Virus record (IMG/VR): IMGVR_UViG_3300033143_005075
Span: 56,099 to 120,098 of that record
Strand: one strand, 5' to 3'
DNA length: 64,000 nt
Source: a virus
Shown here: positions 1,381 through 24,254 of the stretch, one piece after another
Position numbering within the stretch: position 1 is the first letter of the stretch
Layout: each line of letters opens with the position of its first letter
Program-made: the position numbers and the translations under genes
The notes under the pieces: model-generated
Seen by the model: only the letters and a program-made list of their open reading frames with translations
Told to the model about the DNA's origin: nothing
The model's database searches: none

Positions 1381-2071
1381 TCTTACGTACACAGTAGACA
1401 TTAACCACGTAGCACCAGCGATCATGTACCTACTCGACTTCCTTAAGTCGAGTAGGTATCTTGTTCTAAGTAGTAGTATCGCGAAGAGGTGTGGGTTTCA
1501 TGAGTATATCCATCGTCATGAGAAGCTATGCTGGACGGTGGTGCGACTCTGTACAAAGACTTATCCTATCATCGCAGCACAAGATGCCTTCCGACAGATG
1601 TTCCATAAGCCCTTAAGTATCTATGGGTGGGATACCTTGTGGTCAGATCTTTGGTATGATTCATTCTATGTTATGCCTCAACGCTTTCGACCAGTTAACA
1701 AAACAAAAATATATACAGAGTATCTTCCTTACTTCCTCAGGATGCTTCCTTTGTATACATCAAAAGCATTACTTAAGATACATAAGACATATAAGAGACA
1801 CCTTCGCTCATCTATTCATCCTGTTATAGAGCTTAACGATGATTATATAGATAATAAGAAGAAAGCACTAACCAGATTAGATCTTATTAAGCGCCTTGTT
1901 TCTATGGAACAGGCGCCAAATAGTACCATCCAGAATATGTATTATTATCTTAAGGATGTTGGAAATGTTAAAGACTCTGGCTATGTGGGATTCGGAAAGC
2001 TATTAGGATATAAGGACTTAGATGCTGCAGGACTTAGACGCATCGGATTCTCGGTTTTGAACTCACATTAG
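1310..2071 (+). CDS. hypothetical protein, up to 253 aa
   Basis: Unrecognised. Three in-frame ATGs are possible: 1250, 1310 and 1424. The 1310 start has GGAGG 13 bases upstream, a long spacing. The 1424 start would avoid overlapping the previous gene but has no Shine-Dalgarno site and lies just before a 14-bp perfect hairpin. The body (from about 1480) is rich in Tyr, Leu, Lys and Trp, with a mostly helical look (KALTRLDLIKRLVSMEQ) and a conserved-looking end GYVGFGKLLGYKDLDAAG. No signal peptide is evident. The stop overlaps the 3' end of the convergent minus-strand gene by 38 bp, marking where the two transcription directions meet. Confidence 0.5.
   Translation: MAKKSYQTGSNGNITIRHQTRNRSLTYTVDINHVAPAIMYLLDFLKSSRYLVLSSSIAKRCGFHEYIHRHEKLCWTVVRLCTKTYPIIAAQDAFRQMFHKPLSIYGWDTLWSDLWYDSFYVMPQRFRPVNKTKIYTEYLPYFLRMLPLYTSKALLKIHKTYKRHLRSSIHPVIELNDDYIDNKKKALTRLDLIKRLVSMEQAPNSTIQNMYYYLKDVGNVKDSGYVGFGKLLGYKDLDAAGLRRIGFSVLNSH
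1427..1458 (+). repeat. 14-bp perfect inverted repeat (hairpin) with 4-base loop
   Basis: The arms TACCTACTCGACTT (1427-1440) and AAGTCGAGTAGGTA (1445-1458) are perfectly complementary around the loop CCTT, with one further G-U pair possible. It is followed by TCTTGTTCTA, moderately T-rich but not a classical U-tract. It sits inside the reading frame 1310-2071, directly after an in-frame ATG at 1424. It may be an intrinsic terminator or attenuator for the plus-strand genes, or a structure controlling translation of the downstream part of that gene. Confidence 0.6.
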
Positions 2072-3980
2072 ATTTAAATATTAGATTGCCAAACCAGTTA
2101 AACCACCAAACACGAAACCAATTTCTTCCTTTACTTTCAACATGAATTGTCTCTCTTGTTGTATTAGCTATTGCTTTTGGTGCATCCGTTACTGTATCAA
2201 CAGCTACTCCTGTTATAGTAGCAGCTGCACCGGCTACAGCGGTTTGTACCTGCTGTCGAGTTAAGGGTTGGTTAGGGCCGTTACCTTCAGCTTCTGTCAT
2301 GAATGTATGCAAAGCTGTTACACCTGTTACATTCATGACACTTGGTGTGTGTCCTCTTTGTCCTATTTCTATTGTGACACCAGCTGCTGCTGGATTTGTT
2401 GTTGACCTCTTATGTTGTGAGTAATAATCTGTGAGAGTAATGGTCTTAAGTAATGTCTCAAGACACTCTCGGAATTTCTCATCTAGATAATAGTATTCAT
2501 CATCAATCTTATAGAGCCGTCGATGAGGCGTTTCAACGCCATCATCGGCTTCACTTAATGAAGGAACAGTAGGAACTGTGGGTCTATCTCCTGTCTTTTG
2601 TAGAATTGCATTACCACTTGATCCGTATCTTGTGGATACATCATTCTCTAGAATAGATACATCTTCGTTTGCTTTAGCAAATCGTAGATGGAGTTGGTGA
2701 TTATTCTTAGTGAAATGTTCACTACTAAATATATGTTTGCGGCTACTACCACTTACTCCGAAATCAACTGTCTTACCTGGTATACGATCAGCTGATACGA
2801 ATACATGCGAATCAAATATATTAAGAGCTTGCAGAAATTCATTGATAGAGTTTACATTGAGACAATTTCTAAACATATCAACGCGATCTGGCGCAGTCAT
2901 TGCTGCCATTGCTTGAACCATTTTTAAATCATTATTTCCTGAGTTGCACTTCGTATAGTAATATTTTAGTGCTGCTACTGAAATCATGATTTGATCAAAT
3001 TGTGAAAGCTGAGTAAGTATAACTTTCTCCAGAAACGCATTTGCAACTGTTGGTGTGCTTGCTTCATTTGCTATAGCTATAGCTTCTTCTTTCTCGTTTG
3101 AATCATTCTTATCTAATCCTAGTCCTGGTGGATCCGAAGTAGTACTATCACTCACTGCATTGTTATATATGTCTTCCCATCGTGTAACCTGACTCTTTAT
3201 TAGATGTTCTCTAGCTGATTGATATGTTGAATCTCCATAAGTGAATTGTGGGCCAAATGATAAATGCGGACTCTGAGAATCAATTGCTCTTGCAACAAAT
3301 CCTTTGATCTCGAACAATAGAGGATTACCTGTTATTCCGAGGGTTAGTCTTCTGCTATCTCCTGGCCTATATAGATAAGGTGCAAATCTACTATTACTAT
3401 TTTCAGAAAAGAACCTTTTGTTATATCTATCAATTAAAATACTAAGGCCATTAAAGAAATCATCGAAACTGAGCTGACAAATACCAAATCTAGAACTTAT
3501 AGTAGAGATTGAGGGAACGCGAGATGCTTTCGTCATATCTAGTAACGATCTGGTAGCAAAGAATGCTTTAATAAATCTCCAGTCTGGAATTTCCCGTTCA
3601 GAACCAATGGAGCTTCCACCACCAACCGACATACTAAAATTATCCGGGTTCTCAGAATGAAAGTGGTTCTTAAATAGAGCTAGTGTTGCATACTTAAATA
3701 CCCAATCGTATTTGTCTGCTTCTGTACCAGTTAGTTTATCTAGGTTTGTTAGCACCCAGTTGCCCGCGGTTGAGTTTTTATCTGTGGTTTCTCCTGCTTC
3801 TGAAGCAGACTTCGGTTTCAGTTTTCTATATTCAGCATTCACCACTCCTGGATCGATTTCAGAGTTTGCCCAAGTTGGTATGCCGAATAGAGAGCCATTC
3901 AGATATATTCCATTACGAGGATTTAGTGATTTGATACTAAAGAGATGATGATATGAGTCCCGTATTGTTGATATTGCCAT
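2034..3980 (-). CDS. hypothetical virion-type protein, 648 aa
   Basis: No family recognised. It is the last gene of the minus-strand series and begins in a TAATG overlap with the stop of the glycosyltransferase at 3980-4942, preceded by GGTGA. The protein is soluble-looking, without signal peptide or membrane segment. It has Ser/Asn-rich loops, a Glu/Asp-rich linker around residues 290-310, and an Ala/Thr-rich stretch near residues 585-605 (VAGAAATITGVAVDTVTDA), then a Trp-rich end (WFRVWWFNWFGN). The style is that of the large structural proteins in this window, so a virion role is a guess. Its last 38 bp overlap the convergent plus-strand gene. Confidence 0.6.
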   Translation of the reverse strand: MAISTIRDSYHHLFSIKSLNPRNGIYLNGSLFGIPTWANSEIDPGVVNAEYRKLKPKSASEAGETTDKNSTAGNWVLTNLDKLTGTEADKYDWVFKYATLALFKNHFHSENPDNFSMSVGGGSSIGSEREIPDWRFIKAFFATRSLLDMTKASRVPSISTISSRFGICQLSFDDFFNGLSILIDRYNKRFFSENSNSRFAPYLYRPGDSRRLTLGITGNPLLFEIKGFVARAIDSQSPHLSFGPQFTYGDSTYQSAREHLIKSQVTRWEDIYNNAVSDSTTSDPPGLGLDKNDSNEKEEAIAIANEASTPTVANAFLEKVILTQLSQFDQIMISVAALKYYYTKCNSGNNDLKMVQAMAAMTAPDRVDMFRNCLNVNSINEFLQALNIFDSHVFVSADRIPGKTVDFGVSGSSRKHIFSSEHFTKNNHQLHLRFAKANEDVSILENDVSTRYGSSGNAILQKTGDRPTVPTVPSLSEADDGVETPHRRLYKIDDEYYYLDEKFRECLETLLKTITLTDYYSQHKRSTTNPAAAGVTIEIGQRGHTPSVMNVTGVTALHTFMTEAEGNGPNQPLTRQQVQTAVAGAAATITGVAVDTVTDAPKAIANTTRETIHVESKGRNWFRVWWFNWFGNLIFKSNVSSKPRIRCV

Positions 3981-4942
3981 TATATCACCATGATTTCCTT
4001 GATCTTTGCCGCGGTGTTGGCCGGGCTGGTCTCTTCAGTATACTCTATAACCTTTCGTATGTCAATTGAGTTAATTACCTTCTGAGGGTCTTCTATGACC
4101 TCTCTGATGCTGTCTCTATAGTTGTCCTTCATACGATAGACAACACCTTCTGGAAGACCATCAAATTGAGGATAGCTTGGCACCACAACAGGCCGCCCGC
4201 TTGCTAATGCAACGCGGGCAGTGCCGCTTGCATTGTACGTATCACCACCATCAGCCTGAACGAGAAGGATCATGTCACACTTCTTGTTCAGTGCTTTAAT
4301 GATGTCGGATTTGTCTTTGTAATAATTAAAATCGAATGTAACTCTATCTTCGAAACCCTGACGCCGGCAAACACTCCTGCACCTATCCAGATATGATTTA
4401 GAGATCTGGAAGTGTTTCAGAGTTACGTCATTAATAGTGCTTACGATATGAAGATGCATATCTAGATTATATCCCAGCTCCATGATGCCTCTGATAAGAC
4501 ATGTTCTGGGGACAGCAAAGCCATGCATCCCAATAGTGAAAATGTTCTCTGCTTTTGTCTCGTCTGGAGAGTCTGTGATAGGTTCAGAGTAGTGCTGTAT
4601 TACATAGATAGGAATAGTAATAACCTGAGCGAGTTTTGATTTCATGATCTCAGTGGAGACAAACACACCCTCACATAACTCGTTGATCTTTCTGTGAGTG
4701 ATCTGGTTGTTCGGATTGGTAAGATTTACAGAGTGCATGTAAATAAAGGTTTTAGGACGCAGCACTTCTATTTGTTCCCAACAATCACCATCATATGCGT
4801 ACTCATGTTCTAGTAAGATAACATCTGGAGAAATAATGACTGAATCATTTATCTCCATGTTAAGATAAGAGTTCAGTCCTTTGGCAAACTCGGCTATTCC
4901 GCACTTCTTCTTAAGAGTTGGAACTAGGTGCAGATTCATCAT
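3980..4942 (-). CDS. GT-B glycosyltransferase (GT4-like), 320 aa
   Basis: Predicted to transfer a sugar from a nucleotide-sugar to a growing glycan. The N-terminal half has the KKKCGIAEFAKGLNSYL start typical of GT4 enzymes (Gly-rich loop beside a helix), then LLEHEYAY and FIYMHSVNL. The C-terminal half has ENIFTIGMHGF and the donor-binding region ASGTARVALASGRPVVVPSY near residues 235-255, where GT4 enzymes carry the E-x7-E motif; the first acidic residue is not obvious. There is a GGAG Shine-Dalgarno site, and the start overlaps the preceding gene as ATGA. It is part of the tightly packed glycan island. Confidence 0.8.
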   Translation of the reverse strand: MMNLHLVPTLKKKCGIAEFAKGLNSYLNMEINDSVIISPDVILLEHEYAYDGDCWEQIEVLRPKTFIYMHSVNLTNPNNQITHRKINELCEGVFVSTEIMKSKLAQVITIPIYVIQHYSEPITDSPDETKAENIFTIGMHGFAVPRTCLIRGIMELGYNLDMHLHIVSTINDVTLKHFQISKSYLDRCRSVCRRQGFEDRVTFDFNYYKDKSDIIKALNKKCDMILLVQADGGDTYNASGTARVALASGRPVVVPSYPQFDGLPEGVVYRMKDNYRDSIREVIEDPQKVINSIDIRKVIEYTEETSPANTAAKIKEIMVI

Positions 4943-5238
4943 ATACTCTCCTCATCTAAGTCATGGACCTCACAGACATCTGGTATGATCATAACTGATC
5001 CCTTGATGTCCTTATCCTTCATCCATTGTATGATCGGCTCGGCTCTCTTAAGCACATTTTCCTTTCTGATCCGAGTGTCCCTAATAAGGATCAAAATGGG
5101 CGTCCCAGGATTTTCTTTACGTTTTTGGTTGATGATCTCAATATCATCTGTAGGAAATGGCTCCCAATTACTCACAAATGCTATGTGAGGTTCCTGCATG
5201 TCTACGTTAGTCCAATACGGCACTAGTGTATTCTTCAT
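4939..5238 (-). CDS. small protein, possibly nucleotidyltransferase-like, 99 aa
   Basis: The fold appears to be Rossmann-like: HIAFVSNWEPFP, PILILIRDT, then helix EPIIQWMKDKDIKG and strand SVMIIPDVCEVHDLD. The IRDT step followed later by MIIPDV resembles small cytidylyltransferase/adenylyltransferase-like proteins seen in some phages. The HxGH nucleotide-binding signature is absent from the N terminus, so catalysis is doubtful. Good Shine-Dalgarno (AAAGGATAAGCAATG). It is flanked by glycosyltransferases and overlaps the next gene by four bases, so it is probably co-translated and functionally tied to the glycan genes. Confidence 0.45.
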   Translation of the reverse strand: MKNTLVPYWTNVDMQEPHIAFVSNWEPFPTDDIEIINQKRKENPGTPILILIRDTRIRKENVLKRAEPIIQWMKDKDIKGSVMIIPDVCEVHDLDEESI

Positions 5239-5241
5239 TGC

Positions 5242-6033
5242 TTATCCTTTGAAAGGCTTGAGAGCCTTATAGTATTCTTTATTTGTCATGGTATCGGGCA
5301 ACCATTTGGTTGCAAGAGCATGCATTTTGATCTCTTCGGTGCTGTTTCCTGGGCTTCTGATCCTAGCTTCTGTTCCAACTGGATCATTGCTCCCATAGTG
5401 GTTATATCGTGCAATCGCCTGTTCCACGGTAGCGAGGCAGTGATAGTGGTCCACTCTTAGAGTCTTACTATTTGCATGTATCTTATTGTTACCACGTTGT
5501 ACCTCGGATCCATCCTCGTATACTATCCATTCAAAGATCGAGTCTTTTGTCTTGAAGTTCAAACCTTTATGCATGCGATATACACGCATTTGGTTGGTGT
5601 CTATCCTATCAAGATTGTTTGCTATGAAGAACTTTCCATCTATAAATCGTTCGATGTTCATTAGCTTTACAATGATGCCATTGTATTTATCAGATCGAAT
5701 AGCTTCACTGACTGCCTTCGCATTAGCCTCAGAATATATCTCATCCGAGTCTATCTGCCATGTCCATAAGTTGGAGTCATGGTTACCAGTTACATCCACA
5801 TGTTCATTGTGCTTATTGAAGAGAGACCCCATCTGAGAAGCCACTATGTGCAGTGGCTTCTTGGAAGATGCCTTCAGTTTCTGTAGATACTCCCAGGTAC
5901 CATCAGTGCTCCTCTTTCCTTTAAAGGATCCATCTACTATGACTAGCTCATCTATTAGGTCATAGACAGCATCTATACTGTAGGGCAGTGTCACAATGTT
6001 GTTGTAACAAATCCAGCATGCAACAATCTTCAT
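5242..6033 (-). CDS. GT-A (GT2-like) glycosyltransferase, 263 aa
   Basis: The N terminus KIVACWICYNN and DELVIVDGSFKGKRSTDGTWEY match the nucleotide-binding start of GT2 enzymes. The metal-binding DxD equivalent is visible as QIDSDEIY near residues 92-99. The C-terminal half holds a VDHYHCLATVEQAIARYNHYG segment typical of acceptor-side loops. There is no membrane segment, so it is a cytoplasmic enzyme. Shine-Dalgarno AGGAG precedes the start. It is likely paralogous to the next GT-A gene upstream (6045-6788), which shares the VDEL(V/I)I(V/T)DG(S/E) start. Confidence 0.85.
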   Translation of the reverse strand: MKIVACWICYNNIVTLPYSIDAVYDLIDELVIVDGSFKGKRSTDGTWEYLQKLKASSKKPLHIVASQMGSLFNKHNEHVDVTGNHDSNLWTWQIDSDEIYSEANAKAVSEAIRSDKYNGIIVKLMNIERFIDGKFFIANNLDRIDTNQMRVYRMHKGLNFKTKDSIFEWIVYEDGSEVQRGNNKIHANSKTLRVDHYHCLATVEQAIARYNHYGSNDPVGTEARIRSPGNSTEEIKMHALATKWLPDTMTNKEYYKALKPFKG

Positions 6034-6044
6034 ATTATTCTCCT

Positions 6045-6788
6045 TTAATCTTCTGTTCCAAATAGACTTCTTATAGGTGCAAATCGACAGTTGTGTTCTG
6101 ATGGAAATGTTAACAATGGCTTTGTTGCCCGATCCTTGCTCTTGTAGTGCTTGTATAGCTGTTTCTTATCAAACATCATTTTGTAGTGCCACATACTATA
6201 TGCACCAACCATGTCCTTGATATCTGCCAGTCGTTTGTTATACTTGTTACTAAAGAGACAACAATCAATTCCATTCAGGTTACGTATATCTTTGAAGACT
6301 ATATCTGGAGTGTTTTTAATAAGTCTTGGTACACTATGATGGCCATTGATTCGTATATGAGGCAAGAACTTATTTCCTGGCACTACTTCATATTGTAGCT
6401 GACTAAAGGATAGAAATGCAGGATTCTTCTCTATCAGATTGTGGAAATCCGTGTGTTCGTGATACAATTCATCTACATCTTTCATTAATATATGCGTGCC
6501 CGAACACTTAGATATAGCATATGTTCTACGTTCCATTTCATTAAAGCCATCGGCAGTTCTTTCACGACCAGATACAGTTCTCTTTCTGCCATATCTCTGT
6601 CGCATTGGATATAGTTTGATCTTACTAAATCTATTAGCCATTCTATCTAGAAGCTCTGCTGTGCCGTCGGTACTCTCTCCATCGGTAATGATTAACTCAT
6701 CAACGAACTGTAGTAAGTTCATGATGGATAACTTTATAATGGGTTTCTCATTATAACTGATCATATATCCGGAGAGCTTTATCTTCAT
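6045..6788 (-). CDS. GT-A (GT2-like) glycosyltransferase, 247 aa
   Basis: A classical GT2 opening: KLSGYMISYNE, then FVDELIITDGESTDGTAELLDRMA. A metal-binding acidic motif MKDVDELYHEH lies near residues 101-111. The arginine/lysine-rich loop (QRYGRKRTVSGRERTADG) between them may contact a phosphate. The C-terminal part includes MWHYKMMFDKKQLYKHYKSK, the basic acceptor-side helix common in this family. The start overlaps the stop of the methyltransferase gene upstream by four bases, and CTGGAGAT provides the ribosome site. Confidence 0.85.
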   Translation of the reverse strand: MKIKLSGYMISYNEKPIIKLSIMNLLQFVDELIITDGESTDGTAELLDRMANRFSKIKLYPMRQRYGRKRTVSGRERTADGFNEMERRTYAISKCSGTHILMKDVDELYHEHTDFHNLIEKNPAFLSFSQLQYEVVPGNKFLPHIRINGHHSVPRLIKNTPDIVFKDIRNLNGIDCCLFSNKYNKRLADIKDMVGAYSMWHYKMMFDKKQLYKHYKSKDRATKPLLTFPSEHNCRFAPIRSLFGTED

Positions 6789-7339
6789 TTGATTATCTCC
6801 AGTATGATTCCATATGATCTCGAACTAAATCTCTCAATGAACCTCATAGTATCGCTATTCATAATCTGTGGTTTTATGTGTGCCATATTCTTGAGGTGGT
6901 CTTTGTATTTAGGATACATATGGACACTGAAATCATATCGATTGAAGAGATCCAGGAAGATAGATAGACTTGGAACGACACAGTCATGTTTATGATTATA
7001 TCCTTTAAGAAGATCTTCTATCCGTTGACCATCAGGTCCAAATGGGAACCAGTGTACGGAAGCAATCCTTGCTGTTCTGATTGATTCCGACATGAATTTC
7101 GCTTGGTTGTTCACATGTTCTAACGTAGCAATCGATGTCGTGACATCGAAGCTGTTATCTTTATATGGGAGGTTCGTGCCATCGATTCCATTATTGATAT
7201 TAGCATCAGTTACTTTGGCTGTCAGAAACTGTTGCAGTCTTCTGAATCCTCCAATATCCAACACAGTAGAAGGATCATATTTCTTGACATATGAAGCGAC
7301 AGCATTATGGATTACTTTAGATACTTCAGGGATATGCAC
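6785..7339 (-). CDS. SAM-dependent class I methyltransferase, 184 aa
   Basis: It starts with GTG directly after the TAG of the upstream gene, with AAGGAG nine bases before it. SAM-binding motif I is VLDIGGF (residues 26-32). The motif II/III region is LPYKDNSFDVTTSIATLEHV near residues 57-76, the standard arrangement of a methyltransferase type 11 domain. It would methylate a small molecule or a sugar. Given the flanking glycosyltransferases, O-methylation of a sugar residue is the natural inference. At 184 aa it is short but complete for this family. Confidence 0.75.
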   Translation of the reverse strand: MHIPEVSKVIHNAVASYVKKYDPSTVLDIGGFRRLQQFLTAKVTDANINNGIDGTNLPYKDNSFDVTTSIATLEHVNNQAKFMSESIRTARIASVHWFPFGPDGQRIEDLLKGYNHKHDCVVPSLSIFLDLFNRYDFSVHMYPKYKDHLKNMAHIKPQIMNSDTMRFIERFSSRSYGIILEIIK

Positions 7340-8242
7340 CTAGTCTCCTTCGTGTTTCTTGACAAACTGTAGTATCCCGTCCACCCTGAAATTGATATTG
7401 TGTTGTCTCTTACATCGTTCGTGTGCCCTCTTGCCAATCTCTGCTAGCTGCTCTGGATGTTTCATATAGTGGTTTAACTTGGACAAGATGTCGCTGTATG
7501 TGGTATATGTAATAATTTCCTTGTCATTGAACACCATAGCAATTTCTGGTCGTGCTCTGGTGATAACAGGTACCCCACATGCTGCATACTCGAACATGCG
7601 GTGCGCCAGTGGGCTCCAGTCGTCTTGCACATCCAGTCCTATCTGGCTCTTACCGATAATGCGCAGAAACTTCTCTCCAGTAATAAATCCATGGTTCTCG
7701 GGATGAGAATTCCATTGGGCACCAAATGCTAGTATTCTATAGGATGTCTCTGATCGTAATTTGTTAACGAATTTGATCCTTGTTTGCTTGTCGTGAAACC
7801 ATGGATGGGTACCCAGTCCGATGACTGATACATCTATATTCTTGGGTGTATCCATTACCTTATGATACCTGAAATCACATGCTGTCTGGTTATAATGCAT
7901 AGGAATGGTAGTCTTGTACTTCTCATAGGTACCTATATGGTTGGTGACATATAGATCATAACTCTTAAACCGATCTGGTTTGAAGTAATAGGGATCCGAG
8001 AAACCAAATCCAACAATGGGTATCTTTATCTTTGCTTTCACTGCAGGACTGAGCAACAGCGCTGAACTGGCTAGCCATATCATTGTTGGAGAGTGTTCCT
8101 TAATGAGCTGAAGTATCTTGTTCATTTGTGACGTGTCTATCCAGATTATATCTATTCCTCTGCTTTTAACTTCTTCAAATATCGAGCGCTTTGTGCCGTA
8201 GTTGTTGTATGTATACCGGTCGCTAAAGTACAGTATCTTCAT
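7340..8242 (-). CDS. CgeB-like GT-B glycosyltransferase, 300 aa
   Basis: The N-terminal half has ILYFSDRYTYNNYGTKRSIFEEVKS. The C-terminal half has VSVIGLGTHPWF and the donor-site block DWSPLAHRMFEYAACGVPVITR around residues 205-226, matching the C-terminal glycosyltransferase domain of CgeB/spore-maturation type proteins. It ends with a helical LSKLNHYMKHPEQLAEIGKR region, also typical. Cytoplasmic, without signal peptide. It has an AGGAG ribosome site and overlaps the acyltransferase gene upstream by 20 bp, or abuts it if that gene's second frame end is considered. Confidence 0.85.
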   Translation of the reverse strand: MKILYFSDRYTYNNYGTKRSIFEEVKSRGIDIIWIDTSQMNKILQLIKEHSPTMIWLASSALLLSPAVKAKIKIPIVGFGFSDPYYFKPDRFKSYDLYVTNHIGTYEKYKTTIPMHYNQTACDFRYHKVMDTPKNIDVSVIGLGTHPWFHDKQTRIKFVNKLRSETSYRILAFGAQWNSHPENHGFITGEKFLRIIGKSQIGLDVQDDWSPLAHRMFEYAACGVPVITRARPEIAMVFNDKEIITYTTYSDILSKLNHYMKHPEQLAEIGKRAHERCKRQHNINFRVDGILQFVKKHEGD

Positions 8243-8723
8243 GTCTTTCTCCTATCTTCTTGGCGGGATTCCCGGCCCATATTTCATATTGAGGAACATC
8301 TTTTGTGACAATAGCGCCGGCGCCGATTACTGCACCTTGTCCTATGCTTACTCCATCAGTAATAATAGCTGATGCTCCTATCCATACATCATTTGCTATA
8401 TTGATACCTTTATGTGTGTTTGGCTGGTTTCTTATCAGAGTATTGCGTTTTATACCGTGGTTCTGTGCATGTATTTGAACTCCAGGACTGATCAGAACAT
8501 AATCTCCAATGGTGATGCCGCCCTGTCCGTGCATAATAGTATTATATCCTACACTGACAAGTTTTCCCATGCGGATGGTTCCTGTACACGTACGGATGAT
8601 ACAGTTATGCATGATCTTAGTTCCATTGCCCAGAATAATCTCGCCACCATGTTCATTGTATCCAATGTGTGACTCTGGAGAGATAGTACAATGCGCACCC
8701 TTGATGAGTTTGGCTGTTATCAT
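8223..8723 (-). CDS. left-handed beta-helix (hexapeptide) acyltransferase, 166 aa
   Basis: The sequence is built of hexapeptide-repeat strands from start to near the end (GGEIILGNGTKI, GKLVSVGYNTIM, GGITIGDYVLISPGVQIH, ANDVWIGASAIITDGVSIG, QGAVIGAGAIVTKDV) and closes with EIWAGNPAKKIG. This is the WbbJ/LbetaH acyltransferase architecture; the usual reaction is O- or N-acetylation of a sugar using acetyl-CoA. His in IHAQNHG is in the position of the catalytic His of the family. I place the start at 8723 rather than 8735, because it has GGTGA upstream and makes an ATGA overlap with the preceding gene, while the earlier ATG has no ribosome site. Confidence 0.85.
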   Translation of the reverse strand: MITAKLIKGAHCTISPESHIGYNEHGGEIILGNGTKIMHNCIIRTCTGTIRMGKLVSVGYNTIMHGQGGITIGDYVLISPGVQIHAQNHGIKRNTLIRNQPNTHKGINIANDVWIGASAIITDGVSIGQGAVIGAGAIVTKDVPQYEIWAGNPAKKIGERHEDTVL

Positions 8724-9412
8724 GATTTCACCCATCTGGTATTGCTCTGTCGAGTGAAATGCTTACGTAGAAATGCTAACCCTTTACTCTCCCATACATC
8801 AATGCTATTCTTGAAATGTCCTGATGATTCTTTCACCTTGAGACTAACTTCTAGTATCAATATGGCATTCTTCTTCATAGCTTTGTGCAATCGTACCAAT
8901 TCAGAATAGGGATCATATACATGTTCTAAGACATCTAGACACACGACAATATCATAGTGATCATCCTGTAGAACCGCGTCAGAATATAGTATGTTTGTCT
9001 TATATCCACGCTTTAGAACACGACTATGTGCAAATCTTAATAGAGGTCCATTAATGTCCATCATGTCTACATAGTTACCACGTTCTAGAAGGACTATGGT
9101 GTGTGTTCCCACACCACTACCATAATCTAAGCATGTTTTATCTTTATGTTTGGTATCTTTAAAATAGTGTCCTCTACGAACAACACTTGTAAACATCAGA
9201 GTCCTGAGGTATGCATGAAAATCCAAACTCTTGAAGTCTTTATATAGATCTATATAGTCCTCTTCATTACGGATAGGAGCACTACCATCATAGATTCTTA
9301 TAGAATCTGGCGTGCAAATGCCTAGCTGCTGCACATACCTTAGTGGGATATCTATCAGTGGTCCCAGTTCCTCATCTCTTTCTAGCTGTGTCTCTTCAAG
9401 TACGCTTTTCAT
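8720..9412 (-). CDS. SAM-dependent methyltransferase, 230 aa
   Basis: Motif I is CLDYGSGVGTHTIVL (about residues 92-106), followed by VDMMDINGPLLRFAHSR (motif II, acidic Asp for SAM ribose) and YDIVVCLDVLEHVYDP (motif IV region). The C-terminal helices VRLHKAMKKNAILILEVS complete a class I fold. A roughly 90-residue N-terminal extension precedes the catalytic core. This is the second methyltransferase in the glycan island. It could act with the radical SAM enzyme next to it, or O-methylate a different sugar. GAGGAT precedes the ATG. Confidence 0.8.
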   Translation of the reverse strand: MKSVLEETQLERDEELGPLIDIPLRYVQQLGICTPDSIRIYDGSAPIRNEEDYIDLYKDFKSLDFHAYLRTLMFTSVVRRGHYFKDTKHKDKTCLDYGSGVGTHTIVLLERGNYVDMMDINGPLLRFAHSRVLKRGYKTNILYSDAVLQDDHYDIVVCLDVLEHVYDPYSELVRLHKAMKKNAILILEVSLKVKESSGHFKNSIDVWESKGLAFLRKHFTRQSNTRWVKS

Positions 9413-9416
9413 TATC

Positions 9417-10703
9417 TTATCCTCTATTTACTTGCGTATGTTCTTTCAGCCAGTCTCGAAACTCGATTGTTTCAGCATGGAACTCTTCTAGTGTACGATC
9501 CTTGATCTTAAGGATGGGCTTTAGTTCATTCTCTCCACCGGGTCCAAAGAAGTAGAAGTTGTAGTCATCAAGATTCTTGTTAAGGATCTCTACATTGTAT
9601 TTGTCAGGATTGTCCCATATATCAGAGCCGGGGATGGGCACGAAGGTGGTGCATGCTATGATAGAGTAGGGGACCCTAGTTAGCCAGTGTTTGTTATCCT
9701 CTATTGTCTTGGGTGTTTGCCCAGGTGTCCTGATCATCATTAAGATTCGAGTGGTGAACCTGAGCTTGTGAGAGAGTTCGAGCGCTCTGACATTGTCAGC
9801 ACATGTTGCCCGCTTATCCAATAGCTTTAGGACATCATCGTCGAAACTTTCTACACCAAATGAGAGCTCTTTACACCCGCCATCATACATGGCCTTAAGC
9901 ATGTCCTCTGATAGTGGCTTGGTTCGGCACGATACCCGCCAGTAGATGTCCAGCTTCTGGAGCTCCTTACTAACCTCTATAGCATGTCTTGCATTAGCAG
10001 TAAACATGTCATCAGAAAACCTAAACTGTCGTATACCATACTCATCTATGACTTGTTTGACTTCATCCGCTATTGACTTTGGACTTCTGAGTCGAACCCT
10101 ACTGTTGTGAGTGAAAGAAGGCGCAGAACAGAATGCACACTTGAAGGGACAGCCTCTGGAAGATAGCAGGATTGTGGATTTACCATCGTTAGTGTACTGT
10201 TTCTTGAATGCGAAGATATTTCCACCCATATTCCCATCAAGCATCTCTCTAGCAGGAAATGGCAGAGTATCTAGATCTGTCACAAGTTTCCCATGGTATA
10301 CTGGTTTAAGGATGTTGATCTCCATATCTCGCATCATTTCCAGGCATGTTATGTCACCCTCACCTTTTAAGATACTGTCTATATAATTAGTATCAACGAA
10401 CTCATCCGCATATGTGCCTGGGCCACCCAGGATCACGTTACATGTAGGATACTTCTGCTTGATCCTCTTGGCAAACCTGTTAGCTGCAAGTAGCTCGAGG
10501 CTTGTCACGGTGATACCATAGACCCTAGACTCTGGAAGATCCTTTATAGCATTATCTATAGAGTACGCGGAGTAGTTCTTCACGACAGTATTATAATCGT
10601 TCTCTTTAAGAACAGCACCTACTGCTAGCAATCCCATGGGTGCCTGTGCGTTGGGCTCATTGAGATATGGATGGGGTAAATATATAAGTATCATGTCATG
10701 CAT
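9417..10703 (-). CDS. B12-type radical SAM enzyme, 428 aa
   Basis: The N-terminal Rossmann-like region (about 1-125) has the look of a cobalamin-binding domain: APMGLLAVGAVLKENDY, GITVTSLELLAANRFAKRIK and VILGGPGTYADEF. It lacks the DxHxxG motif, as many class B radical SAM enzymes do. The radical SAM core carries the cluster motif RGCPFKCAFCS near residues 183-193 (C-x3-C-x2-C), followed by FRFSDDMFTAN and LSFGVESFDD. Enzymes of this layout methylate unactivated carbons or rearrange substrates. I chose the ATG at 10703, which has AAGGA eight bases upstream; a longer frame to 10736 would overlap the previous gene. It is flanked by a methyltransferase and a pyruvyl transferase. Confidence 0.85.
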   Translation of the reverse strand: MHDMILIYLPHPYLNEPNAQAPMGLLAVGAVLKENDYNTVVKNYSAYSIDNAIKDLPESRVYGITVTSLELLAANRFAKRIKQKYPTCNVILGGPGTYADEFVDTNYIDSILKGEGDITCLEMMRDMEINILKPVYHGKLVTDLDTLPFPAREMLDGNMGGNIFAFKKQYTNDGKSTILLSSRGCPFKCAFCSAPSFTHNSRVRLRSPKSIADEVKQVIDEYGIRQFRFSDDMFTANARHAIEVSKELQKLDIYWRVSCRTKPLSEDMLKAMYDGGCKELSFGVESFDDDVLKLLDKRATCADNVRALELSHKLRFTTRILMMIRTPGQTPKTIEDNKHWLTRVPYSIIACTTFVPIPGSDIWDNPDKYNVEILNKNLDDYNFYFFGPGGENELKPILKIKDRTLEEFHAETIEFRDWLKEHTQVNRG

Positions 10704-10704
10704 G

Positions 10705-11466
10705 TTATATGTCCTTTGACTTGAATGGACACGCATCCATAAGTTTATTGAGATCTATGTTCACTTTATACTCTTTCATATGAACAGACATGTCTTTGAG
10801 TCTGCCCATATCCGGGGTAAGTCTGACTGATGGGCGACTCACTGAAGCAAAGTAGTCTCTGAATTTGAATCCCTGACCAAAGACTTTATTAGAAAGCTCG
10901 ATCCAGTATGATGGAAGACCGTACGCGTCGCCAGCTATTATTCCATGTAGTGCACTTGAGACGATTCGTTCACATGACAACACATCATCTACAAATCCAT
11001 TTATTGATTGTGTGATATCAATAACCTTGACTTTTGGATTACCTACAAATCGTTTAAGCCATGGATGTTTTACATCTACGTAGTGTGGAATGATGCCCCA
11101 AACATATTTCTTTTCGACCTTCGGATGATAGTATCTTGGATACAGAAGGGCGGGATCACCATATACTTCTGGACAAGGAACCTTGAGCTGAAGCAGTCTC
11201 TGCCTGGTCATGGGTCCCCTGACTGCTAGAACTTGCTTAGGTGGGCCCTTTTGGAAGTTGTCAGCTGGGAGCATAAATCCACTTCCCCATACTATGGTAT
11301 TACGATCCACAAGATTCATCTGGCTTCCAATTACTGAGTACTTTGGCTTACTTATGTCTGTACATAAAACTGCTTTCTTACCAGAGATTAGTGAAGTTAG
11401 ATATGGTGAGAGTATGTCTCCCCAATTTGCAAGACCCGCGCACCAACGCATTGGTATTTGATCCAT
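10705..11466 (-). CDS. polysaccharide pyruvyl transferase family protein, 253 aa
   Basis: Family features are clear: NWGDILSPYL near residue 13, VWGSGFMLP, AVRGPMTRQRLL, then YGDPALLYP and the C-terminal SSALHGIIAGDAYGLPSYWI. These match the polysaccharide pyruvyl transferase (WcaK/CsaB-like) family, which adds a ketal pyruvate from phosphoenolpyruvate to a sugar, giving an acidic glycan. It has the GT-B-like fold of the family at somewhat less than usual length. A CGGAG ribosome site precedes the start. It sits between the radical SAM enzyme and a GT-A gene. Confidence 0.85.
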   Translation of the reverse strand: MDQIPMRWCAGLANWGDILSPYLTSLISGKKAVLCTDISKPKYSVIGSQMNLVDRNTIVWGSGFMLPADNFQKGPPKQVLAVRGPMTRQRLLQLKVPCPEVYGDPALLYPRYYHPKVEKKYVWGIIPHYVDVKHPWLKRFVGNPKVKVIDITQSINGFVDDVLSCERIVSSALHGIIAGDAYGLPSYWIELSNKVFGQGFKFRDYFASVSRPSVRLTPDMGRLKDMSVHMKEYKVNIDLNKLMDACPFKSKDI

Positions 11467-11468
11467 GA

Positions 11469-12158
11469 TTATCTCCGTGTCTTATTTAGAATGTAAGCAC
11501 TATTCTTTGCTCCAGTGCCGATATGTTCTACATATTGGTGTGGTAGTGTTGCTAGTTTAAATCCATGATTTGAAAATGTTCCTGTGAATTGTCCCTCGGT
11601 GTTTGGTGGCTTCTTGAATCGACCAGTTTTCCTAACTGCATCCATAGATTGTATACTTGGGTTTAATGTGTAGTGTCCGAACTGTTTACATTTTGCCTTC
11701 TTGTAATCAAACTTTCCCTTATTCTCATCCTTATCCCATAGATGTATGAGACATGATTCGCCCTTGATTATCTTTGGTATGTCACCCATGCCAGGTTTCA
11801 ATACGACTATCTTTATCCTGGTGGTATTCTTAATGATATGGATTCCTTTGCTTATGAACTTACCTTTCTTGATGAACCGCCAATCATCCTCTAAGTGAAG
11901 CACATATGGTGTCTTGACATGTTTAAACACATTGTTCAGATTAGCTGCATGTCCTTTCTCTGAAGAACTAAGGACATTCATGAATGGATACAGCTTCTTC
12001 ATTGCTGCAACTTGTTCTTTGGGGGAATGATCATCTGAGACTATCCATTCAGCTATTCTATCTTGGTCTTCGCACATCTCGAGTAATGATGCGATAGTCT
12101 TCTTGAAAAGATGTAATCGCTTACATGTTGTCATTGTTACTGTTACATCTTTAGTCAT
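11469..12158 (-). CDS. GT-A (GT2-like) glycosyltransferase, 229 aa
   Basis: A GT2-type opening, VTVTMTTCKRLHLFKKTIASLL, is followed by EWIVSDDHS and the metal-binding motif YVLHLEDDWRF near residues 85-95. The C-terminal half contains YTLNPSIQSMDAVRKTGRF and FSNHGFKLATLPHQYVEHIG, plausible acceptor-side elements. It is basic, with no membrane segment. TTGGAG provides a good ribosome site and the gap to the next gene is three bases. The donor and acceptor cannot be read from the sequence. Confidence 0.85.
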   Translation of the reverse strand: MTKDVTVTMTTCKRLHLFKKTIASLLEMCEDQDRIAEWIVSDDHSPKEQVAAMKKLYPFMNVLSSSEKGHAANLNNVFKHVKTPYVLHLEDDWRFIKKGKFISKGIHIIKNTTRIKIVVLKPGMGDIPKIIKGESCLIHLWDKDENKGKFDYKKAKCKQFGHYTLNPSIQSMDAVRKTGRFKKPPNTEGQFTGTFSNHGFKLATLPHQYVEHIGTGAKNSAYILNKTRR

Positions 12159-12161
12159 TAG

Positions 12162-12815
12162 CTACTCCAAGAACCTAATTGCCCGATCGATTTCACATGA
12201 AGGCCCACTGTGGCTACCGGTTTGGCCCATGTGATCTACATATGAATTGATTGTACTACAGATATGCCACTGATCTGTTGTTGCGAGCCAGTAACAGAAG
12301 TCCCAGTCCCATCCTTTATGTTTTGGGCCTTTCTGTGTTGTCTGCTTTCGATACCACTCCCAAGCATCTCTTTTAATAATGCAACCTAACCCACCTATAG
12401 ATACCTTTCTGACATATCCTTTTGCGTCCCTATTTCCAGCTTTAACTTTATGTGTGTCAGTATTAAACAGGGTACCAAATCCCATTTTTGGGAGATCTTT
12501 GACCATATTTTCTACAATATTAAAGATATTAGGATGGACAATGCAGTCTGCATCTAGTGCGAATAGATATTCATCCTCACATATAAGAAACTCTTCATTG
12601 ATTGCTCTAGAAGTGGCTTGATATGGTCCTGCTAATGTGCTGTTTTTGGTAATCATGAGGTCCATCTCTTCTATAATTAAAGGATATGCTGTCGTAGACA
12701 TGTCATCAAAGAGGTGAAGCTTAATATCAGTCCGGCTACGCATAGCTTCCTTAATAGTTGATAAAGTCAATCTTAAGTAGTTTGGCCGATTCTTAAATGG
12801 TAGAACCACTCTCAT
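12162..12815 (-). CDS. GT-A (GT2-like) glycosyltransferase, 217 aa
   Basis: The start MRVVLPFKNRPNYLRLTLST and LHLFDDMST are standard for GT2 enzymes. The DxD motif is explicit in YLFALDADCIVHPNIF (residues 83-98). Downstream come VSIGGLGCIIKRDAWEWY and HKGWDWDFCYW, resembling the ED/WDW-type region around the catalytic base. It overlaps the upstream GT4 gene by four bases, so the two are translationally coupled. Shine-Dalgarno AGGAGAT. Confidence 0.85.
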   Translation of the reverse strand: MRVVLPFKNRPNYLRLTLSTIKEAMRSRTDIKLHLFDDMSTTAYPLIIEEMDLMITKNSTLAGPYQATSRAINEEFLICEDEYLFALDADCIVHPNIFNIVENMVKDLPKMGFGTLFNTDTHKVKAGNRDAKGYVRKVSIGGLGCIIKRDAWEWYRKQTTQKGPKHKGWDWDFCYWLATTDQWHICSTINSYVDHMGQTGSHSGPSCEIDRAIRFLE

Positions 12816-13945
12816 GTTAACATCTCCTTTACCATTTTAAGTGTCGTATCTTGTCCATAGCTATCAAGTAGCTTCTTCCTCTGTTCTGCAATAATAGCAG
12901 GACTATCTCTACGTTCATATGCATCACGCATCCAGTTTCTGAGGTCCATGACATCTACATCTGCCCAGTTCATGTAGCAGTTAAAGTAATTATATGCCCA
13001 GAAAGCATTTCTGACAGGTCTCATCCGATATGGGAGCTTCTTCTGATTGTATTCAGTAAGGAAGTCTTCGGGACCACCATATGCTGTAGTGATCACTGGA
13101 TTGTTGAACATGATAGCATCTACAATGGGGAGGCCTGTGCCCTCACCGCGGTGGGGGAGAACAAAGCAGTCTCCTAGCTTATGTATTGCTTTCATGGATT
13201 CATTGCTGAGTTGTTCATGTATCAGAAGTATATCTGGTAGGAGCTCTCGGCCGCATCCCATTTCTATCGTTAGGTTATTAATAGTCTGTATCATTGCCTT
13301 TGTTTCTGCCGGAGAGTGGTCTACTCTGTAGCTCTTCAAAAGTAGAGTAACTGGTTCTGAGGCATCGAACTCGCTGACATATGCCTCGAGCAGTGCATCG
13401 GGGTTCTTTCGTGGGATCCACTGGAAGATTGAATAAAAGCAAAAGTTCTTGGGTCTGAGGTTGTTGATGATTGGATCGAGGTTTGTCTGATTGATGGGCT
13501 CATCTGCAGATTTGATGTCTTCAGGGAAGAGGGTAGGTGGCAAGACCTTGACTGGGATCTTGACTCCGGATTCTTCGAAGACCTTCTTAATCCGAGTCGC
13601 AGTTACCCAACACTCATCAGCATACTTGTTGAGCTTTGCGACCCAGTCTGTTGGGAGAAGATCAGTCTCCCAGGTAGTGTAGCAGATATTCTTGACGCCG
13701 TCGCGATGGACTTTGTCCATAGCACAGGCTAAGATATGAGAAATTCTTATGTCAGGATCATTGAACTTGTTCTTGAGGCGCTTGCATTCCTGATACTTCC
13801 AGTCATCAGATAGCTTGGTATCATCACTATCTATTTGTGTGACTGAGACATCAAAACCTGCTCTCTTTAGCAGGATGATATTGCGGCGACTGGCATCGCC
13901 ATACCCACTGTTCTTGAATGCTTCACTGAGGTATTCGACTTTCAT
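12812..13945 (-). CDS. GT4 glycosyltransferase, 377 aa; first gene of the glycan island
   Basis: A full-length GT-B enzyme. The N terminus is SEAFKNSGYGDASRRNIILLKRAG (Gly-rich donor loop, split here only by reading: SGYGDASRRN), then NICYTTWETDLLP and DECWVTATRIKKVFEESGV. The C-terminal domain has FCFYSIFQWIPRKNP and the diagnostic LPHRGEGTGLPIVDAIMFN near residues 260-279, which holds the E-x7-E-like donor-binding region, then PVITTAYGGPEDF. It is likely the committed enzyme of the island, being first in the operon, with AGGAG upstream and a promoter-like TTGACA element in the preceding gap. Confidence 0.9.
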   Translation of the reverse strand: MKVEYLSEAFKNSGYGDASRRNIILLKRAGFDVSVTQIDSDDTKLSDDWKYQECKRLKNKFNDPDIRISHILACAMDKVHRDGVKNICYTTWETDLLPTDWVAKLNKYADECWVTATRIKKVFEESGVKIPVKVLPPTLFPEDIKSADEPINQTNLDPIINNLRPKNFCFYSIFQWIPRKNPDALLEAYVSEFDASEPVTLLLKSYRVDHSPAETKAMIQTINNLTIEMGCGRELLPDILLIHEQLSNESMKAIHKLGDCFVLPHRGEGTGLPIVDAIMFNNPVITTAYGGPEDFLTEYNQKKLPYRMRPVRNAFWAYNYFNCYMNWADVDVMDLRNWMRDAYERRDSPAIIAEQRKKLLDSYGQDTTLKMVKEMLT

Positions 13946-14023: not shown

Positions 14024-14584
14024 CTATCTTGTGTCTACCACAGCATCTATGCCTGCTCTGTCTGTAGCATCAAAGATTAGCTTCTTCAGCGATCGTCCAG
14101 TATCAAGATTTGTCTTTGTCGCCACCATCGCCGCCCCCCAGTATCCCGGAAGATTTGCCTCAGATAGCATATATACATTATTGTCATTCGTTGTGACAGC
14201 AAGCGGCCATGTAAATACACTAGAATTATTCTTGATCGTGTTGATATTTGTCTGCGCCTGCACCGATAGGCTGAACACATTCCCGTCAAAAGTAAATCCT
14301 TCGGATATCAAAGAAACAGTCTTATCGTCGATTTCAGCATACCTTGTCTGTTTGTGGGCGGTGAGATCCCCATGGTCCATGATATCTTTCTCACCCTGGG
14401 ACATCTCTGCCACCAAGCCCGAATCCTCTTTCCAGTACTTCTGAGATACCCCAGATACGTCGCTCAAGTTGGGGTTCTTCAGCCAGTTGACAGTATCTGT
14501 AGGGGTATTCGCACTCATCCTATATTCGGTTACGCGATCTGCGACCAGTGCATCATCTGGATCGTATATAATATAATCGGCCAT
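14024..14584 (-). CDS. tail-fibre tip/assembly-like protein, 186 aa (DUF4376-like C terminus)
   Basis: The C-terminal third (FDGNVFSLSVQAQTN, WPLAVTTNDNNVYML, GYWGAAMVATK, LDTGRSLKKLIFDA, ending AVVDTR) follows a pattern seen in small tail-associated proteins of many phages, some labelled DUF4376. The N-terminal part is short and acidic (YIIYDPDDALVADRV). It is the last tail gene before the glycan island and starts directly at the end of the LamG/NHL gene (shared base), with AGGAGG upstream. Role inferred from position: fibre tip, chaperone or attachment factor. Confidence 0.55.
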   Translation of the reverse strand: MADYIIYDPDDALVADRVTEYRMSANTPTDTVNWLKNPNLSDVSGVSQKYWKEDSGLVAEMSQGEKDIMDHGDLTAHKQTRYAEIDDKTVSLISEGFTFDGNVFSLSVQAQTNINTIKNNSSVFTWPLAVTTNDNNVYMLSEANLPGYWGAAMVATKTNLDTGRSLKKLIFDATDRAGIDAVVDTR

Positions 14585-16011
14585 TACGCATTCCTCCTGA
14601 ATTTTAGTTCTGTTCCCACCGCAGTTGGTGAATCTACATATAATAAATCAATACTACCTGCCAAATCTATCAATTTATTGCCGTTATAATTTAGTAGGGC
14701 TGTTCGTGCGTTGAGTGTGTCTGATACATAAACTCGATTGTGGATAGAGGTAATTTCTCTCAACGATGAAAACTGCCCAACTCCTGAACCACTTGAACCA
14801 TAAGACAGCAATAGGGAATAATCAGACAAATCAAAAAACGCTATACGGGCGTTAGCATTATCAAGAACATATATAATCCCGTTGGCAATATGAAGACCTC
14901 GTGGACCATCTAAGTTACTCGACCCGAATGTCGTATTGGCTGATAGGTCCGATTGATTTAAGACAACCACCTGATCCCCAATAAATGACGCGATGAATAT
15001 TTTACTATCTGCTACTCCGATCCCCCTCGGGGATGACACAACGGCTCCCGAATTTGCATCCCACGTCAATCCGGATTCTACCCACACGCATACCCGATTA
15101 TTGCCTTCATCTGTTATATATATCTTCCCATTGTCGATTGTTATTCCTATGGGGCCCGAAAAGTTCTCATCACCAGCTCCCGTCGATCCAAAATTCGATT
15201 CCCATGCCAACGTGGACTCGTTCCATACAGTAACACGATCATTACCAAAATCAACTACATAGATTTTACCGTTTGAAATGGCAATCCCTCTTGGATCGCG
15301 GAACTGCCCATTCCCTAGTCCATTAGCACCAAATGAAGTGATATATGACAAGTCGGTTTCATCCCATACAGTAATTTTATCACCAGAAGCTAATGGAGGC
15401 GATTCTGCTATATAAATCTTTCCGTTGGAAATTGCAACACCATACGGGTGGACCGTTCCGACTGTATCCCTCCAAACTATAGGCGTTGGTTCATTCAGTG
15501 CCCATCTATATTCTAATCCATAATGTATTCCATCTGTACCTCTACATGCATATATTGTTGCCACTTCATCTGCCGGTAGAACTCTATTATATATTCGCAG
15601 ATCATCAATGACTCCGTGAAAGTTATTAGTTCCATAGCCAGCATCACCAACCCGTAAATAATCATTAGTAACCGCTCCCGTCGTTTGTGTGTCCGATATA
15701 TCAAATACACCGTTAATGAATATGCCATTTACGCCTGCATTAGTATAATAACAAGCGACATGATACCACTGTGTAGTAGACGTTATCGTTGCATTACTTT
15801 CAGTTCCTTTTGCTTTATGTCTGCGTAAGATAGTTTGTATTTCATTACTGGTGTTAAATCTAATTAAGAAGTTATCCTCTACATAAATTAATGTATGAAT
15901 AGATCCGATATTGTCTCTTTTGACCCAAAAGCATATAGTTCCATCAGTTGGCACAGTAATGACTGCGTCACTTACAAGAGCTTGACTCACACCATCAAAT
16001 TGCATAGCCAT
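14584..16011 (-). CDS. LamG-like + six-bladed NHL propeller tail protein, 475 aa
   Basis: Residues 1-155 form a concanavalin/LamG-like jelly roll: GTICFWVKRD, WYHVACYY, GIFINGVFD, FHGVIDDLRIYNRVL. Residues 180-460 contain six NHL-type repeats, each of form P-x-G-(I/V)-x-I-x-N-G-K-I-Y-(I/V)-x-D-x-x-N-x-R-(V/I), for example GIAISNGKIYVVDFGNDRV and GITIDNGKIYITDEGNNRV. NHL propellers bind protein, RNA or carbohydrate; LamG modules bind glycans. The gene directly follows the giant fibre gene (they share base 16011), so a role at the fibre tip or as receptor-binding protein is likely. No enzymatic motif is visible. Confidence 0.8.
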   Translation of the reverse strand: MAMQFDGVSQALVSDAVITVPTDGTICFWVKRDNIGSIHTLIYVEDNFLIRFNTSNEIQTILRRHKAKGTESNATITSTTQWYHVACYYTNAGVNGIFINGVFDISDTQTTGAVTNDYLRVGDAGYGTNNFHGVIDDLRIYNRVLPADEVATIYACRGTDGIHYGLEYRWALNEPTPIVWRDTVGTVHPYGVAISNGKIYIAESPPLASGDKITVWDETDLSYITSFGANGLGNGQFRDPRGIAISNGKIYVVDFGNDRVTVWNESTLAWESNFGSTGAGDENFSGPIGITIDNGKIYITDEGNNRVCVWVESGLTWDANSGAVVSSPRGIGVADSKIFIASFIGDQVVVLNQSDLSANTTFGSSNLDGPRGLHIANGIIYVLDNANARIAFFDLSDYSLLLSYGSSGSGVGQFSSLREITSIHNRVYVSDTLNARTALLNYNGNKLIDLAGSIDLLYVDSPTAVGTELKFRRNA

Positions 16012-24245: not shown

Positions 24246-24254
24246 ATTATACCA
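24246..24254 (-). promoter_or_regulatory. candidate extended -10 promoter
   Basis: On the minus strand TGGTATAAT (24254-24246) is a perfect -10 with the TGn extension; no good -35 is seen 17 bases upstream. It overlaps the stop codon of the double-LamG gene and lies about 41 bases before the start of the tail-anchored membrane protein gene (24198). This is consistent with separate expression of the two small genes. Confidence 0.4.

Follow-up and report, generated by a model that had tools for sequence, protein, structure and literature searches.

A putative glycan-building island beside the tail genes of a jumbo phage contains a radical SAM gene core that recurs in other viruses

Glycosylation of phage virions is known from few cases; work by Freeman in 2023 on mycobacteriophages reportedly connects phage glycosyltransferases (GTs) with evidence for glycosylated virion proteins, to go by passages that cite it. 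In the parts of the cited papers on which the comparisons in this text draw, GT islands of large phages are read mostly as modifiers of the host surface (PMC7824862, PMC7029224). The host-recognition clusters of pelagimyophages also belong to large myoviruses, with GTs beside tail fibres and radical S-adenosylmethionine (SAM) cassettes in one genome pair; by description, GT8 is their commonest GT, some sugar-building genes are present, and neither a pyruvyl transferase nor the core described below is mentioned in those parts (PMC7029224). The lipopolysaccharide/capsule clusters of the cyanophage P-SSM2 type are likewise multi-gene GT clusters of jumbo phages (15 genes in P-SSM2) with sugar-modifying enzymes, and a term search of the main text returned no radical SAM, hexapeptide or pyruvyl (PMC7824862). 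Elsewhere, jumbo phage XacN1 encodes just two GTs, and proteomics showed it to have at least two glycoproteins, with no decoration cassette mentioned in the parts used (PMC5852040), and among the widely shared gene groups of moraphages four are putative GTs (PMC12619734); in Clades of huge phages, a term search of the main text found no word that starts with glycos, polysaccharide, pyruvyl or sugar (PMC7162821). Here we describe a 13-gene island at positions 3980-13945 of a 64,000-nucleotide stretch of viral DNA (the window), which corresponds to bases 56,099-120,098 of the 120-kb virus record IMGVR_UViG_3300033143_005075 (G000). As in the GT islands of large myoviruses, several GTs adjoin tail genes, and the phage has a tail sheath. 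P-SSM2-type clusters carry sugar-production enzymes, whereas two such families are unmatched in this phage. The kind of island is therefore already known; a limited open-access literature search did not find the core with its radical SAM enzyme, its spread, or its flagellar and DNA-modification connections described.

The 13 open reading frames (ORFs) all lie on the minus strand, with neighbour spacings of -32 to +11 bp; 78 bp separate the last tail gene from the first island gene, and the last island gene overlaps the following 648-amino acid (aa) ORF by 1 bp. Ten of the 13 proteins match a Pfam family above its curated cut-off (three GT2, two GT4-type, two methyltransferases, and one each for hexapeptide transferase, radical SAM and pyruvyl transferase). 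In the order of transcription the genes are:

12812-13945, minus strand: GT4a, GT4-type glycosyltransferase, 377 aa, first gene of the island (PF00534 at 33.5 bits, above cut-off; phrog_2170 glycosyltransferase; a 33% relative in locus L047)
12162-12815, minus strand: GT2 glycosyltransferase, 217 aa (PF00535 at 33.5 bits, above cut-off)
11469-12158, minus strand: GT2 glycosyltransferase, 229 aa (PF00535 at 35.9 bits, above cut-off)
10705-11466, minus strand: PvT, polysaccharide pyruvyl transferase (PS_pyruv_trans), 253 aa, core gene (PF04230 at 46.1 bits, cut-off 25.3)
9417-10736, minus strand: rSAM, radical SAM enzyme with an N-terminal B12-binding-like domain, 439 aa, core gene (PF04055 at 84.1 bits)
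8720-9412, minus strand: MT2, SAM methyltransferase, 230 aa, core gene (PF13489 at 45.5 bits, above cut-off)
8223-8735, minus strand: HEX, hexapeptide-repeat acyltransferase-like protein, 170 aa, core gene (PF00132 at 47.3 bits, above cut-off)
7340-8242, minus strand: GT4b, glycosyltransferase, 300 aa, core gene (PF13524 at 88.1 bits, above cut-off)
6785-7339, minus strand: MT1, SAM methyltransferase, 184 aa, frequent companion of the core (PF08241 at 31.5 bits, above cut-off)
6045-6788, minus strand: GT2 glycosyltransferase, 247 aa (PF00535 at 34.6 bits, above cut-off)
5242-6033, minus strand: probable GT2 glycosyltransferase, 263 aa (PF00535 at E 0.0017 and 18.7 bits, cut-off 23.3)
4939-5238, minus strand: 99-aa protein without an assigned family (best Pfam match at E 0.086; none in PHROG or NCBIfam)
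3980-4942, minus strand: 320-aa protein, possibly a GT-B glycosyltransferase, though unproven (weak likeness to the C-terminal half of a 913-aa GT encoded nearby, E 0.018)

A preliminary description of this DNA had already noted 13 gapless genes placed directly after the tail genes, and the ORFs agree with it. Its two methyltransferases, hexapeptide transferase, pyruvyl transferase and radical SAM enzyme were all recovered, and the family assignments back the idea that the phage carries an island for building and decorating a glycan. It counted seven GTs, five of which exceed the Pfam cut-off, while the product of 5242-6033 matches weakly and that of 3980-4942 lacks support: the latter has no match in Pfam, PHROG or NCBIfam and no meaningful one in the PDB, and its structure model is unusable (predicted local distance difference test (pLDDT) score 39.6). 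The small Rossmann-like protein proposed at 4939-5238 was a guess. A GT4 gene proposed at 1-1011 on the other strand is a GT when the whole protein is considered, but the window holds only its 3' end. The reported lack of nucleotide-sugar synthesis genes stands for PF00483 and PF01370, the two families searched, neither of which matched in G000 or in the second assembly described below (G001). With no gene of those two families and no acceptor identified, "full pathway" was too strong a term, and "unusual" was half right, as large myoviruses with GTs and radical SAM cassettes beside tail fibres have been described (PMC7029224, PMC7824862). In a scan for a promoter of the island's own, promoter-like sites did not exceed the shuffled expectation (40 versus 44.4, standard deviation 6.8); terminator-like sites numbered 13 versus 8.6 (standard deviation 3.1) in shuffles.

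This gene set sits in a phage genome, and its core, PvT-rSAM-MT2-HEX-GT4b, often with MT1, is conserved in several phages. An IMG/VR scan by alignment of two rSAM proteins (those of the window and L031) returned 23 loci. Merging those with the same DNA (L030 with L031, L032 with L033 and L034, L035 with L047, L040 with L041, and L045 with L046; L060 is the same contig as L031) left 17, this phage included. The rSAM gene is accompanied by both PvT and GT4b in 6 of these 17 distinct viral loci, namely the window, L031, L032, L035, L042 and L043. This is a minimum, with contig ends close to the rSAM gene in L039, L040 and L050, the last a partial locus without an ORF in our tables. Five of the six cassettes have HEX, five have MT2 and four have MT1. 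L037 has rSAM with an MT2 relative only, and L051, a generic radical SAM protein of 24% identity, is counted among the 17 without being scored as a cassette; an MT2-like gene starts there about 4.5 kb after the rSAM gene. Identities to the window proteins in the viral cassettes are 54-58% for rSAM, 34-45% for PvT, 46-56% for GT4b, 51-61% for HEX, 39-51% for MT2 and 36-50% for MT1. HEX relatives occur in L031, L035, L042, L043 and a bacterial contig, L132 (51-67% with the latter included), and MT1 relatives in L032, L042, L043 and the bacterial contigs L131 and L132. The usual order is PvT, rSAM, MT2, HEX, GT4b, with MT1 varying in place (before or after GT4b, or replacing MT2); in L031, PvT stands behind GT4b, and MT2 and HEX are fused into one protein (L031:6707-7651).

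The other viruses that carry the core are apparently unrelated to this phage. At the DNA level the locus groups are mutually dissimilar, except for L032 and L043 (best piece 77% identical) and a 518-base piece between L042 and L043. Of the 17 other virus records searched, several of them fragments that possibly lack a terminase, none matched the terminase of this phage, and six have a phrog_2-type terminase. Judged from these sequences, the core appears to be present in about five phage lineages, and would have moved between them or been acquired repeatedly. The rSAM tree leaves 12 of 16 inner branches open and contains one very long row (L051), and the direction of transfer is not readable from it. 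In cultured phages rSAM relatives occur in five records at no more than 28% identity, and plasmid relatives among the matches listed (10 of 124 records) are 23-28% identical. At E 1e-5 none of the 50,697 phage records matched GT4b, and MT2 had a single weak match.

We also considered whether bacterial polysaccharide genes had been misjoined to a phage contig, or a host island mistaken for phage DNA; homologous genes in two bacterial contigs would fit such a chimera. The same DNA is, however, present in the opposite direction in a second record, IMGVR_UViG_3300033153_007973 (G001, 234,008 bp). The first 7,380 bases of G000 match the first 7,380 of G001, reversed, at 99.97%, and the window start aligns with G001 near 185 kb. 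From these two overlaps the genome is probably circular or circularly permuted and about 233.8 kb long, with G000 positions 7,381-56,098 lying outside the alignment of the two records. Over window positions 2,931-23,945 the assemblies differ by one 115-bp insertion near 6094 and about one further base, small differences of the kind expected of separate populations rather than of one copied artefact. (The 115-bp difference, seen against L005, falls at the end of the GT2 gene 6045-6788 and also shifts the apparent start of the next GT2 gene.) G001 carries the island together with terminase and tail sheath genes, by which the virus is identified as a tailed jumbo phage with a contractile tail; the only relative of the sheath in 50,697 phage records is in Moorella phage MTATph1 (25% identity over 39% of the protein). 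A misassembly or host island is rejected as highly improbable because the same DNA is present in two assemblies, and the core recurs in five other viral loci. The preliminary description had named capsule loci with bacterial flanks as the finding that would overturn it, and had called for a synteny search in viral genomes: the homologous core was found in five other distinct viral loci, and in bacteria it was found rearranged in two contigs, both of which carry flagellar genes and one of which also has polysaccharide-type genes.

Those two contigs came from a scan of 84,980 genomes with two strict patterns and are a lower bound. The patterns occur in 11 of 26 rSAM rows (4 of 16 distinct viral rows), so the viral count is likewise a lower bound. 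On L132, a Phycisphaerae contig, rSAM and MT1 are followed by a 1153-aa GT4b-HEX-GT2-GT2 fusion, after which comes FliD in the same orientation; past FliD, an FHIPEP-family gene lies on the opposite strand. L131, a Deltaproteobacteria contig of 51,408 bp, has MT1, MT2, rSAM, a carbamoyltransferase, GT4b and a PvT-family gene together; the last was assigned by Pfam and missed by the profile of this phage's PvT. A flagellin gene lies about 45 kb and a Maf/MptE-type gene about 30 kb from that cassette. The bacterial core copies are reminiscent of flagellin glycosylation islands with Maf genes, in that FliD adjoins the copy in L132 and the L131 contig also holds flagellin and a Maf-type gene. The flagellar association, seen in both of two contigs, is suggestive, the number being small and the scan strict. 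An MptE/Maf-like gene also stands just before the L031 cassette (E 3.2e-7, under the Pfam cut-off). In this phage, a Pfam scan limited to the island genes and their scanned neighbours found no flagellar or Maf families.

The reading that we favour, tentatively, is that the island makes a decorated glycan in the cytoplasm and that a virion protein is the probable acceptor. The genes, arranged like an operon among the late (virion) genes, would build a short glycan there from host sugar nucleotides. The GTs would assemble the sugar chain, rSAM would make a radical change on a sugar (AprD4-like deoxygenation or C-methylation), the methyltransferases would add methyl and HEX acyl groups, and PvT would add a pyruvate ketal that brings a negative charge; the activities of PvT, HEX and the methyltransferases are predicted by family only. 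The acceptor would most likely be a late-region virion protein, above all one of the fibre-like proteins encoded just upstream, glycosylated before assembly in the manner of flagellin, and the resulting coat would change how the virion adsorbs, protect it or imitate glycans of the host. We favour a virion protein because the island is gapless, on one strand and directly after the tail genes, and because related cassettes or the same rSAM adjoin virion genes elsewhere. The L031 cassette comes directly after tail genes; in L036, rSAM lies between the portal and major head protein genes, accompanied by a gene of the GT2 family and a 327-aa gene that has no family; and in L038 it precedes the major head protein gene. 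L032 has a PAAR spike gene 2.6 kb before its first GT, with other-strand genes between, and L043 a similar gene by eye. The flagellar genes on both bacterial contigs and the MptE/Maf-like gene of L031 speak for the same acceptor class. The MT2-HEX fusion of L031 and the four-domain fusion of L132 indicate that the genes are tied into one pathway. Membrane-like stretches are absent from the 13 island proteins, whose mean hydropathy in 19-residue segments peaks at 1.43; this would be expected if the acceptor is cytoplasmic. With the 913-aa GT and the 648-aa protein included, no 19-residue stretch in these proteins exceeds 1.48. In five related cassettes 43 of 46 ORFs are also without a membrane-like stretch (limit 1.6), and the other three, one of them a HEX protein, are marginal at 1.64-1.76.

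A sugar as the substrate of rSAM is suggested by its relatives and neighbours. The CxxxCxxC motif is present in 26 of 26 rSAM rows (duplicates included). The B12-binding domain PF02310 scores 24.4 bits, under the cut-off of 32.1, and the DxHxxG motif occurs in none of the 26 rows; some B12 enzymes lack this motif. The structure model is good (pLDDT 89.9). By sequence profile the best PDB relative is AprD4 (6fd2, E 2.1e-22), which is also first in VIA-align (Z 31.1, 3.1 Å over 393 residues, 18% identity), and AprD4 deoxygenates a sugar ring, working with a reductase (PMC5461906). That the best PDB relative by profile and VIA-align acts on a sugar is a further reason for preferring decoration of a virion glycan. 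The score for the NCBIfam family of AprD4 itself (NF033070) is 61.4 bits, far under the cut-off of 500.

Several observations weigh against this interpretation. AprD4 is not a clear winner: the VIA-align runners-up follow closely by Z (MgmA 28.0, CysS 27.8, OxsB 27.4), Foldseek places the methyltransferase TsrM first and AprD4 fifth, and NCBIfam ranks HpnJ first and AprD4 twelfth, with none reaching its cut-off. The L035/L047 cassette stands beside an endolysin gene and, by eye, a DNA-polymerase-like gene, with no tail genes, and in L042 no virion gene was recognised beside the cassette. Other phages, Cobetia phage Carin-5 among them, have PvT genes in their replication regions. The flagellar link consists of two bacterial contigs, on one of which flagellin is as distant as noted above. 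No acceptor was identified, and the serine/threonine content of the fibre-like proteins is ordinary (0.157-0.192, versus 0.151-0.170 in other late proteins). A tail fibre shared as common acceptor was not found for the one fibre tested, which is not common to the other cassette phages; only the phage of L032-L034 has a weak match to it, about 54 kb away from the cassette.

Pyruvyl transferases, hexapeptide transferases and GTs are usual in bacterial polysaccharide loci, which counts for a different acceptor, the host surface. A lipid-linked O-antigen, capsule or wall glycan would then be modified or extended during infection, excluding other phages or keeping progeny off debris. We consider this quite possible, and it follows close behind a virion acceptor. 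Authors have read similar islands in this way, both the pelagimyophage clusters (PMC7029224) and the 15-gene cluster of P-SSM2 (PMC7824862), and the L131 contig has further polysaccharide-type genes (the carbamoyltransferase and PvT families by Pfam, and a DegT-like gene by eye). Against it, Pfam scans of the island proteins recognised no initiating transferase, flippase or polymerase, and the 13 proteins lack a membrane-like member. The place of the island at the end of the run of virion genes suggests late expression, when surface remodelling would be less useful. For either acceptor, the core may be a mobile gene kit that puts an unusual sugar on viral proteins or on the surface of the host.

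The product could also be a free small molecule, such as a decorated oligosaccharide, or have another use, which we regard as improbable. For some carbamoyl transferase-bearing clusters of jumbo cyanophages, secondary metabolites have been proposed as the product (PMC7824862), and the best PDB relative of rSAM comes from an antibiotic pathway. The five to seven GTs, however, look more like chain building on an acceptor, and an export-type membrane protein is missing from the 13.

Other relatives of rSAM lead to DNA. They lie near the gene for a 5-hydroxymethyldeoxyuridine DNA kinase (HMUDK_hel) in L044, L046 and L049, and beside a TET-associated glycosyltransferase in L044 and L048, which could mean that GTs and rSAM build a glycan on modified phage bases. 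For this phage such DNA hypermodification is not supported and seems very unlikely: HMUDK_hel is found in 3 of 20 records searched and in neither G000 nor G001, and a thymidylate-synthase-family gene, present by family match in 9 of the 20, is absent from both as well. Thymidylate-synthase-family enzymes are the usual source of hydroxymethyl pyrimidines. Partial matches to this family in the cassette phages L032-L034 and L043 keep base modification open for those. A Tet_JBP search matched none of 15 records, and the control genomes were likewise without a match. The settings in L036 and L038 and in the hypermodification clusters indicate that this rSAM family accompanies sugar transfer across several kinds of phage system. 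By linking phage glycan cassettes with DNA hypermodification clusters it points to a common, assayable sugar-editing chemistry. A bolder version of virion-protein decoration, which we put forward as doubtful, is that of a viral kit for glycosylating proteins, passed on horizontally and akin to flagellar glycosylation genes, that places a pyruvylated, methylated, acylated and radically modified (e.g. deoxygenated) sugar on virion proteins, with the same rSAM family at work in DNA hypermodification clusters and so serving both coats and genomes. The core of five or six genes, recurring in phages and in two flagellar-gene contigs, is a defined enzyme set to express, and it poses a clear question: whether the sugar goes onto virion proteins, onto glycans of the host or onto DNA.

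The genes on either side of the island are:

24247-26658: minor tail protein (PHROG match)
14584-23674, minus strand: LamG/NHL protein and three repeat-bearing fibre-like proteins (PF13385 and PF01436 for 14584-16011)
14024-14584, minus strand: tail protein, DUF4376-like, directly upstream of the island (phrog_2837 tail protein at E 2.8e-5; PF14301 just under cut-off)
2034-3980, minus strand: 648-aa protein without a Pfam or PHROG match
1-1011, plus strand: 3' end of the 913-aa GT4-type glycosyltransferase, which starts outside the window (whole gene L004:16369-19110)

The fibre-like proteins of 16011-21155 have no PHROG match. Repeats are common to the fibre-like genes between window positions 16011 and 26658, and one 560-aa fibre has 14 matching places in each record. 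The 648-aa protein could be an acceptor or a virion protein. The 913-aa protein as a whole matches phage glycosyltransferase PHROGs (phrog_2170 at E 9.1e-25) and PF00534 above the cut-off; the part within the window has no Pfam match by itself.

Among 50,697 phage records, 19 contain PvT relatives (15 of these are from Lak phages); IMG/VR has such relatives at 260 places, of which we kept the best 80. A PvT profile had no match in the PDB at E 0.01, and S.LHG is invariant in a six-row alignment. The relatives in Lak megaphages and in LR756500, a 462-kb phage, are 34-47% identical. In LR756500 (L021, LR756500.1 112447-153214) PvT lies among GT4, sulfotransferase, DegT and cytidylyltransferase genes by Pfam, and by eye GT2 and methyltransferase genes; unlike in this phage, no rSAM relative was found in the 40-kb stretch, which seems to be a separate, larger glycan island with its own sugar-precursor supply. 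The Lak stretch (L022), read through table-11 ORFs only, has PvT pieces alone, the match being split over two ORFs. On L007, a 37-kb viral contig (IMGVR_UViG_3300028556_000026), the stretch 8672-12964 has a PvT relative that follows two GT-like genes and immediately precedes terminase-like genes, by eye. L054 (IMGVR_UViG_3300033148_008638) has a PvT of 47% identity with GT4b-, MT2- and HEX-like genes by profile and no rSAM, and its metagenome also yields a piece of this phage (L026).

Two further features lie in G000 upstream of the window. A 1250-aa helicase gene (L004:6012-9764) contains an intein, with matches to TIGR01445 and TIGR01443, and a 281-aa ORF at L004:7723-8568 overlaps this intein-bearing gene. 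At L004:2289-5138, genes that by eye are anaerobic ribonucleotide reductase-like and activase-like would suggest an anaerobic host.

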